Assembly (NCBI GenBank): GCA_902634515.1
Contig: CACPKH010000008.1
Span: forward strand, 1-47,262
DNA length: 47,262 nucleotides
Reading direction: 5' to 3'
From: an uncultured Prochlorococcus sp.
Lineage (GTDB): Bacteria > Cyanobacteriota > Cyanobacteriia > PCC-6307 > Cyanobiaceae
Shown here one piece after another: positions 39,356 to 42,304 of this stretch. The position numbers and the translations under genes were made by a program. Each line of letters opens with the position of its first letter. Positions within the stretch are counted from its first letter, which is position 1. Under the pieces are notes generated by a model. That model made no database searches. It saw only the letters and a program-made list of their open reading frames with translations, and had not been told where the DNA came from.

Positions 39356-40069
39356 TTAACTCTCATTAGTAATAAGTGATCCAATAGATTTACCAGAAAC
39401 AGCCTTATTGATATTGCCAGATTCAAAAATATTGAAAACTATTATAGGTATATTGTTATCTTTGCAGAGAGCTATTGCAGTGCTGTCCATAACAGCAATT
39501 TCCTTCGTTAGTACTTCTTGATAAGTTAAATTCTTATATTTAATTGCATCAGGGAAATTCTTTGGGTCACGATTGTATACGCCATCAACCTTAGTTGCTT
39601 TGAAGATTACTTCGGCATTAATTTCTGCAGCTCTTAGAGCAGCCGTTGTATCTGTTGTAAAAAAAGGATTACCGCAACCTCCACCAAAAACAACAACTCG
39701 ACCTTTCTCTAGGTGTCGAATTGCTCTACGCCTTATATATGGCTCTGCAATTTGTTGCATTTCAATAGCAGTTTGAACTCTCGTCTCTACGCCTGCTCTT
39801 TCTAAACCATCTTGGAGGGTAATAGCATTCATTACCGTAGCGAGCATCCCTACATAATCAGCTGTAGCTCTATCCATCCCAGCCGCAGATCCTTTAAGTC
39901 CTCGAAAAATATTTCCACCGCCTACAACAATCGCTAGTTCAGTTCCGCTTTTAACAACTTTAGAAACATCCTCAGCTATAGATTTAACAATCTCAGGATC
40001 AATACCATATGGTTTTTCTCCCATTAGTGCTTCACCACTGAGTTTTATAAGAGCGCGAGAATAAGCCAT
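39356..40069 (-). CDS. pyrH: UMP kinase
   Basis: PyrH phosphorylates UMP to UDP as a hexamer of amino-acid-kinase fold. The 237 residues contain '[20 protein letters not shown]', '[20 protein letters not shown]', '[20 protein letters not shown]', '[20 protein letters not shown]' and '[20 protein letters not shown]', all typical. It heads the pyrH-frr-reductase unit. A perfect 24-bp inverted repeat lies 28 bases upstream of its ATG and would be in its leader if transcription begins further up. Confidence 0.97.
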
Positions 40070-40377
40070 TTTTAAACCTTATATAAACGACAGTAGCAAG
40101 TTCTTCTTAGCTCTTTTGAGATCTGTATGGATTTGCTGGCGAGAAAGTGCTCTTTGCTTTTAAATCAATCAATTTCTCAAAAGAGCTAAGAAGAACTTTA
40201 GGTAATAATTAAAGCTAGGTATATCTTCTAAGGCCTTCAATAGAAAAAATTGGTTTCGAGTCATATTATTGGAAAAAACTTTGCTGCATAAAGCAATCAT
40301 TTTTGTTTGGCTATTAATCTTTTTTCATTTCTTAGACTTATAAATGAAAAAATATCGATTAATTACTTTAACTATTT
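40070..40377. other. Intergenic region between cobO and pyrH
   Basis: This 308-base AT-rich gap holds the pyrH control region and the cobO 3' end. The only outstanding structure is the perfect inverted repeat at 40098-40198. Frames within the gap are short. I see no tRNA, no transposase remnant and no direct repeat. The section 40200-40377 is very AT-rich and featureless to my reading. Confidence 0.6.
40098..40198. repeat. Perfect 24-bp inverted repeat with 53-bp spacer, upstream of pyrH
   Basis: The left arm is 40098-40121 and the right arm 40175-40198, identical as reverse complements over all 24 positions (the arm includes TCTTCTTAGCTCTTTTGAGA). The spacer at 40122-40174 is 53 bases. Flanking bases do not pair. 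An RNA read through it would fold into a very stable stem ending 28 bases before the pyrH ATG. It could be a transcript-processing or attenuation element, a small RNA, a recombination site for the nearby tyrosine recombinase, or a small mobile-element relic. Confidence 0.9.
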
Positions 40378-41070
40378 TTAGTATTCAATTCCTCGTTGAG
40401 CTTTGATACCTTGTTCCTTAAAAGGATGCCTTAACAAGTTCATTTCTGTCACTAGATCTGCATTTTCAATAAGTTCTTTCTTTGCCTCACGACCGGTTAA
40501 TACAACGTGAGTTAACCTAGGCCTTTCTTTAATGCCTTTTAAAACATAATCTAAAGGAATATATTTAAGTTTAATTGCAATATTTATCTCATCAAGAATT
40601 ACTAACTTGTATGATTTATCTTTTAAAAAAGATGTTGCCTTATCCCAGGCTTTTAAGGCAAGCTCTTTGTCTCTGGAGCGATTTTGAGTTTCCCATGTAA
40701 ACCCCTCACCAAGAGCATGCCATTTTAGTTTGTCCCCAAAACTTCTTAAGGCTTTTGCTTCACCTGGCTCCCAACCTCCTTTGATAAATTGAATTATCGC
40801 TACATTGTCTCCATGTCCTAAGGTTCTGATAGCCATTCCTAAAGATGCTGTAGTTTTCCCTTTGCCATGACCTGTAAAGACAATGATTAATCCTTTTTCG
40901 TTATTTCTTTGACTAAGCCTTAGCTGTTGAACTTCCTTCCTTTTTTTCATTCTTTCTTTATATTTTTCATCATCATTGCTTCCATCTTTCATATAGCCAC
41001 CCATACCAATATCTTTTGACTCCTTGTCTAACCGTTTAAGTGTTTCTGAATTAATCTCTTGAGTATTCAT
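40378..41070 (-). CDS. cobO: Cob(I)yrinic acid a,c-diamide adenosyltransferase
   Basis: CobO/BtuR adds the 5'-deoxyadenosyl group from ATP to the reduced corrinoid. The 230-residue protein has the P-loop 'VFTGHGKGKTTASLGMAIR', 'VAIIQFIKGGWEPGEAKALR' and 'KLVILDEINIAIKLKYIPL' (Walker B), then 'RPRLTHVVLTGREAKKELIE', all standard. About 55 N-terminal residues precede the P-loop and are charged (Lys/Glu-rich), as in other picocyanobacterial versions. It is downstream of the recombinase gene by 61 bases. Confidence 0.94.
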   Translation of the reverse strand: MNTQEINSETLKRLDKESKDIGMGGYMKDGSNDDEKYKERMKKRKEVQQLRLSQRNNEKGLIIVFTGHGKGKTTASLGMAIRTLGHGDNVAIIQFIKGGWEPGEAKALRSFGDKLKWHALGEGFTWETQNRSRDKELALKAWDKATSFLKDKSYKLVILDEINIAIKLKYIPLDYVLKGIKERPRLTHVVLTGREAKKELIENADLVTEMNLLRHPFKEQGIKAQRGIEY

Positions 41071-41131: not shown

Positions 41132-42304
41132 TTATTTATATAAAGTTTTTGAGAGAGCATCATCAACAGCCTTTTGCTGATCTCTTTTAGTTATCCAATG
41201 ATGATAAGTACGAGTATGAATTGCTACTGAGTGTCCCATCATTCTTGCTGAAACTGTATCTGGCAGCCCCATGTGAATTGTGCGAATTGCCCAAGCATGT
41301 CTCAAGTCATATGGAGTAAAAGGGATTTTGTATCTATGGAATTGTTCAGAAACTCTTCTGCCTACTTTTTGTAGAGTTGTGGTATCTAGACTTCGATTGA
41401 CATTTGGTAAAGAATTTTCATCTTCTCCAAGCTTAAAAAGATCAAATTTTTCGACCCAGTCAGGATGAAATGGCCAGGATTGATGCTCTCCTGTTTTCGT
41501 ATTAGGAAGAACTCTTAAAACTTTATCTCGTTTTTTAGTAAGAGATGAAAAATCACAAAAGAACACTTCATGATTTCTAAGACCATAAGTAGCCATTAAA
41601 CCAAAAACTAATTTCCATTTAGCATTCGGTATTTTATTGAAAGTTTGAATAATTAGATTGTCATTTGGTAAATCTCTAAATTGAGCTTTATGCAAACCAT
41701 AACCACATGCTTTTTCCTTCCAATCTTCAGGAAGGCTTATATTTAAGTATTTCGCAAATGATTGAAGAACAGTTCCACATTGAAGTCTGCTTCTAGTATT
41801 TTCTGAGTAACTTAATAAGGTTTCTATGAATAAGTCTTTCTTATGATTGTAATCCTTTTTTTTTGCTTGTTTCTCAAGCCTTCTTAAGTAGGGCTTATAA
41901 GCAGAATTCCAATTTGTATTAGCACTTGCGAGTGATTTCCCTTTTTTAGAAGGTTTAAAAAAATGTAATTCAAATTTTTTTATTCCTTCTTTAATCATTA
42001 TATTATTTTCTTTTGTATTATTTCGCGGTTTTTTAGATAACCAAGCATCCCAATTAAATTGCTGATGCTCAAGTTGTAAAGAAATTAACTGAACAGATTT
42101 TTCGGCTTGTGCAAGTCCTTCTGCATTAAAAGGTAAGCCAAGACTAATTCTTTGGGACTTTGATTTTTCTGGAGAACCATTGCAAGGTAATGGACCTCGT
42201 AGTCCAAGCCTGTTCCCTCGCGGTTCGATTCTTAGCTTGATACCTTTTGAAGCGAAGTGAGTATTTAAAGCTTTAAGTTGTTTATTGAAATCCATTAGTG
42301 ACAT
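41132..42304 (-). CDS. Tyrosine recombinase / phage-integrase family protein
   Basis: The 390-residue protein has an N-terminal SAM-like/AP2-like DNA-binding portion with many Lys residues and a C-terminal catalytic domain. Catalytic residues found are R243 ('ATYGLRNHEVF'), the box II 'PYDLRHAWAIRT' (R335, with Tyr332 where His is most common), H358 ('MMGHS') and the nucleophile Tyr367 ('TRTYHHW'). This suggests an intact enzyme. It sits between hemH (divergent, 62 bases) and cobO with no phage genes, att repeats or tRNA nearby, so it looks like a resident chromosomal recombinase rather than part of a prophage. Confidence 0.85.
   Translation of the reverse strand: MSLMDFNKQLKALNTHFASKGIKLRIEPRGNRLGLRGPLPCNGSPEKSKSQRISLGLPFNAEGLAQAEKSVQLISLQLEHQQFNWDAWLSKKPRNNTKENNIMIKEGIKKFELHFFKPSKKGKSLASANTNWNSAYKPYLRRLEKQAKKKDYNHKKDLFIETLLSYSENTRSRLQCGTVLQSFAKYLNISLPEDWKEKACGYGLHKAQFRDLPNDNLIIQTFNKIPNAKWKLVFGLMATYGLRNHEVFFCDFSSLTKKRDKVLRVLPNTKTGEHQSWPFHPDWVEKFDLFKLGEDENSLPNVNRSLDTTTLQKVGRRVSEQFHRYKIPFTPYDLRHAWAIRTIHMGLPDTVSARMMGHSVAIHTRTYHHWITKRDQQKAVDDALSKTLYK

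Follow-up and report, generated by a model that had tools for sequence, protein, structure and literature searches.

Template switching during replication has been described as a source of novel perfect RNA stems (PMC8794818; Monttinen and Loytynoja 2022), the hairpins treated there lying in mammalian microRNA and insect rRNA genes. In yeast, both the homogenisation of arms and the inversion of spacers have been described, and the repeats linked to switching were reported to have spacers shorter than those of the remaining inverted repeats (PMC8604942; Abraham and Hazkani-Covo). The quasipalindrome-associated switching of E. coli takes place during replication on short inverted repeats, its described substrate being an existing imperfect palindrome (PMC7202029). 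Whole-genome amplification likewise yields inverted chimeras, which made up 406 of the 475 chimeras of multiple displacement amplification reported in PMC1855051.

Here we analyze a perfect inverted repeat in the gap between cobO and pyrH of an uncultured Prochlorococcus sp. (contig CACPKH010000008.1; the window, i.e. the whole stretch of DNA analyzed, comprises 47,262 nucleotides). Like the hairpins of PMC8794818, it consists of a perfect reverse-complement copy beside its source, is absent from the relatives examined and gives a perfect stem. Unlike them, it lies in bacterial intergenic DNA, and the ancestral states of the target site are not reconstructable here. With the E. coli system (PMC7202029) it would share replication switching on short inverted repeats, but no ancestral imperfect palindrome was detected in the 26 relatives tested. 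With the amplification chimeras of PMC1855051 it shares the inverted joining of nearby sequence.

Results

The repeat, which is known from one assembly, was confirmed there as perfect, the arms being complementary at 24 of 24 positions (Table 1). The whole of it is housed in the 308-bp cobO-pyrH gap (40070-40377), and 28 bases (40070-40097) separate it from the pyrH ATG. A sequence-only reading of the same DNA had given the coordinates, the arm length of 24, the perfection of the arms, the 53-base spacer and the 28-base distance to pyrH, all of which match the sequence. Its statement that the dyad is far beyond chance also holds, since the longest perfect inverted repeat among 300 dinucleotide shuffles of the gap was 13. 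The genomic background was scanned for perfect inverted repeats with arms of at least 14 and spacers of at most 300 in stretches of four genomes. The 445,273 bp sampled from the own genome (window included) held 10 such repeats, 3 of them with arms of at least 20, and the repeat studied here was the only one to combine arms of at least 16 with a spacer of at least 20; the two remaining perfect repeats with arms of at least 20 have 1-base loops. The corresponding three counts were 6, 2 and 0 in G040 (one contig, 400,000 bp), 8, 1 and 1 in G012 (one contig, 400,000 bp), and 10, 0 and 0 in the same-genus G002 (fragmented, 377,960 bp). The long-spacer repeat of G012 measures 18 bp with a spacer of 33, and its arms are largely palindromic themselves. 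Across these four genomes, all other repeats with arms of at least 16 have loops of at most 15, and the pyrH repeat is therefore unusual in its combination of arm length and spacer. A scan of cobO loci totalling 428,693 bp, many of them from distant cyanobacteria, gave four repeats, whose arms measure 16-18 and whose spacers measure 43-129. A scan of the whole window (arms of at least 16, distance of at most 400) returned one other pair (19 nt, 89%, 253-base spacer).

Two further structures were observed in the course of these scans. A perfect 24-bp hairpin with a 6-base loop, equal in arm length and of the short-loop type, is present at L235:4173-4226 in the one-contig relative G012. Within the window, an AT-rich, imperfect inverted repeat (19 nt, 84%) lies just past the cobO stop at 40317-40355; it may aid in ending cobO transcription, though no T-tract terminator was scored.

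Table 1. Features of the cobO-pyrH region, in coordinates of the window.
Feature	Position	Strand	Evidence and remarks
pyrH-proximal arm	40098..40121	-	Apparently the sequence at the ancestral position, next to the promoter-like motif on its upstream side; in register between two blocks that L036 and L042 share with the window
Spacer, 53 bases	40122..40174	.	pyrH-side part common to relatives, orientation unchanged
Distal arm	40175..40198	+	Perfect reverse complement of the proximal arm; counterpart in relatives not seen; probably the derived copy
TTGCTACTGTC, candidate extended -10 element (TGnTAnnnT) of a pyrH promoter	40089..40099	-	Exact in 25 of 30 gaps; promoter function putative
pyrH (UMP kinase; gene name presumed)	39356..40069	-	Gene order and identity to relatives; Pfam AA_kinase
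cobO (ATP:corrinoid adenosyltransferase)	40378..41070	-	
Tyrosine recombinase-like protein	41132..42304	-	Pfam Phage_integrase; synteny; apparently a resident gene of the locus, outside the finding

A match to pyrH was obtained in 91 of the 99 genomes searched, the own genome included. The gap was compared at 30 loci, namely the window and 29 of the 90 other pyrH-matching genomes, one of which (L049) stops short of cobO. When the last 330 bases were searched for perfect arms of at least 8 with spacers of at most 150, the repeat was not found in any of the 29 relatives' gaps, the longest perfect arms being 11 (L037 and L042). These 11-bp repeats are at the level of chance, as arms of at least 11 arose in 25 of 300 shuffled versions of the window gap, and clustered hairpin formation in the gap was rejected accordingly. 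Among the further loci, cobO and pyrH are adjacent in 39 of 83, the remaining 44 being mostly from distant cyanobacteria; the 39 gaps contain no such stem either, with a longest perfect repeat of 9. The sets of 39 and 29 overlap by at least one genome (L146 is G043). The sequence-only reading had coupled two observations as telling against it, absence from related strains and an assembly artefact, and the first of these holds for the relatives examined. Folding of the homologous segments of 26 relatives (the 83-100 bp gaps of L041, L057 and L059 being too short for inclusion) gave z values mostly between -2 and +2, with lower values for L062 (-3.4), L047 (-2.8), L050 (-2.6) and L060 (-2.1), and none of the 26, the low-z ones included, had a perfect stem longer than 11. 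Together with the 29 and the 39 further gaps, this rules out a conserved structured element. The same-genus genomes G001 and G002 gave no match to pyrH, the gap DNA or frr (the empty frr answer, obtained with no positive genome, is uninformative), and the closest lineages are thus missing from the comparison; the recombinase had a weak match of 54 residues in G001.

The cobO-pyrH gap is loosely constrained and varies strongly between lineages. By eye, about ten of the 30 gaps (L035, L036, L038, L039, L044, L045, L046, L049, L050 and L054) share a small reading frame on the opposite strand, 32-64 aa long when truncated at the gap boundaries, with a core like MARLTISAL...CW..P.VHRALLVSGLSVLLAS. 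In the remaining gaps, including that of the window (40070-40377), where the small frame was not detected, a different frame is the longest. Possibly the small frame represents an unannotated small protein that is being lost in the group.

The pyrH-side part of the spacer reads CCAGCAAATCCATACAGA on the minus strand, and the T that follows belongs to the arm as its first base. The window block CCAGCAAATCCATACAGAT is present in L036 and L042 with one change and in unchanged orientation, and the spacer block CCAGCAAAyCCATACAGAT is best shared with the same two relatives. The distance from the block to CTTGCTACTGTC is 19 in L036 and 20 in both L042 and the window. Because these shared flanking blocks keep their spacing, the proximal arm appears to sit in the old slot, i.e. 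at the ancestral position, and the comparable part of the spacer seems not to be inverted but to retain the ancestral orientation. The reverse complement of the slot was matched in the gaps of 26 relatives at 10-14 of 24 positions at best, a value equalled by at least 20 of 200 letter shuffles in each; in the window the match is 24 of 24, equalled by 0 of 200. No counterpart of the distal arm was found in the relatives, with which the distal gap could not be convincingly aligned, so that the alignment fixes neither insertion versus replacement nor the switch points. As the proximal arm appears old and no relative's slot has a reverse complement above chance, the distal arm is most likely the new copy. 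The perfection of an ancestral quasi-palindrome was rejected, there being no trace of one in the 26 relatives.

The own genome contains two matches to the arm at a tolerance of 3 mismatches, both at the pyrH locus, and the search for copies elsewhere that the sequence-only reading had proposed thus came back empty. An exact search of genome_contigs and viral_contigs, where records of the own genome or of near ones may be absent, returned no match. Among 400 family genomes, again with up to 3 mismatches, four matched: besides the own genome, three genomes in which a single arm matched at 3 mismatches; as a reversed control pattern matched 12 of the same 400, these three one-arm matches are no more than chance. 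A DNA search of the 400 genomes with 40098-40377 gave, beyond the window, short and weak matches in 16 genomes (best E 5.9e-5), and the window contains no tandem repeats. A mobile or dispersed repeat is ruled out by the single-locus arms, and the earlier idea of a small mobile-element relic goes without support.

It had also been proposed that the dyad is a binding site for a recombinase, given the tyrosine recombinase gene nearby. The distance of about 0.9 kb is correct (933 bases from the far arm), but the gene is not one gene upstream; cobO separates it from pyrH, so that it is the second gene upstream. The order frr-pyrH-cobO-recombinase-hemH was found in 17 of the 20 relative stretches fetched. 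Of the other three, L081 ends before the recombinase and L082 inside the recombinase gene, while L077, in which synteny is broken, shows neither cobO nor a recombinase gene in the roughly 4.4 kb that precede pyrH. The repeat does not travel with the recombinase gene, as it is present in 0 of these 17 stretches (16 within the 29-relative set, and L076 within the 39-gap set). Since the gene is resident at the locus in 17 genomes, none of which has the repeat, its nearness is uninformative. As far as the data go, the recombinase is a resident of the locus unrelated to the repeat, and a binding site for it is unsupported. The protein scores just above the cut-off for Pfam Phage_integrase (29.9 bits; cut-off 27.1) and reaches the cut-off of no NCBIfam model. 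The stable keeping of a tyrosine recombinase-like gene between cobO and hemH in the 17 stretches is a separate observation.

In 29 of the 30 gaps the promoter-like motif TTGCTACTGTC, variants allowed, starts 30 bases upstream of the ATG; in L042 the distance is 37. Of the 39 further gaps, 16 carry its core TTGCTAC close to the gene. The other 23, in which it was not found, measure 115-128 bp, and those with a name are mostly titled Prochlorococcus; the motif has apparently been lost or changed in these short-gap lineages. We take the motif to fit an extended -10 element, which makes it a candidate promoter of pyrH. If this reading holds, transcription would start about 14 bases ahead of the ATG, leaving the repeat entirely upstream of the start. 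The end of the proximal arm overlaps the motif by two bases (TT). Because the motif sits between stem and gene, the stem is probably outside the pyrH leader.

Folded as RNA, the 101 bases of the repeat have predicted energies of -46.4 kcal/mol on the plus strand (z -9.15) and -41.5 kcal/mol on the minus strand (z -7.28). The stem would form strongly if transcribed, and its earlier description as a very stable RNA stem is right as geometry. No known structured RNA family matched the window above the Rfam gathering score. An intrinsic terminator is ruled out by the 53-base loop, the missing T-tract and the fact that no terminator-like site was found in 39900-40500.

Discussion

We consider it probable, though well short of certain, that the repeat is the scar of a short template-switch mutation during replication. 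For 24 bases next to the pyrH promoter, on its upstream side, the strand under synthesis would briefly have taken the opposite (or nascent) strand as template before returning to its original one. The result would be a reverse-complement copy at a distance of 53 bp, farther from pyrH than its source, and hence, in one step, a perfect potential hairpin. As expected of such an event, the second arm reads as a native segment close by, copied in reverse complement, and the flanks are collinear at the gene level. A template switch is favoured because a short native segment is copied in reverse nearby, the flanking genes are in order and there is no trace of a precursor. It is mildly weakened by the 53-base spacer, which is long compared with the shorter spacers of the switch-linked yeast repeats. 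The perfect pairing could instead come from selection. We infer a replication mechanism for the repeat, and a stem with little or no function, since the stem would lie upstream of the candidate pyrH start in a strongly varying gap. Among the genomes examined the repeat is private to its own genome, and it is ordinary.

An amplification or assembly artefact is possible but unlikely. The own genome (G000; 1.19 Mb, 41 contigs, 66% complete) looks like a single-cell assembly, and many of the named relatives at the locus carry AG- names, which we take to denote single-cell genomes. Inverted chimeras are thus to be reckoned with in such material. A simple chimera of the kind reported in PMC1855051 is, however, a single junction without return, whereas here the genes on both sides are in the order of the relatives, and the sequences continuing beyond the distal and the proximal arm are not reverse complements of each other. 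An artefact would therefore need two switches within about 100 bases. Moreover, no second such repeat was found in the 445 kb of the own assembly or in the 378 kb of G002.

Somewhat less probable still is a functional RNA stem, for instance one that serves RNase III or RNA stability on read-through transcripts of cobO, or one that acts in the pyrH leader. The perfect pairing and the low fold z values on both strands speak for such a role. Against it stand the absence of the stem from the relatives' gaps examined, the lack of Rfam matches and of a terminator-like site, and the position of the promoter-like motif, which places the stem outside the proposed leader. That the derived hairpin provides a new, lineage-specific control of pyrH, via a DNA cruciform or folded cobO read-through RNA, seems to us very doubtful; if true, one replication slip would have made a regulatory structure in one step. 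A recombinase target or mobile-element relic, for which the nearby recombinase gene speaks, is highly improbable in the face of the 17 recombinase-bearing relatives with no repeat, the single-locus arms with no exact match in the contig collections, the apparently ancestral orientation of the comparable spacer part and the absence of tandem repeats.

If the repeat is indeed the scar of a template switch, it provides a fairly clean example of a long perfect stem that arose in one lineage without conserved function, and it cautions against calling a strong hairpin near a recombinase gene a switch. Since the source arm can be told from the copy by its conserved neighbours, the locus, though unsurprising, would be useful for the study of template switching in bacteria.
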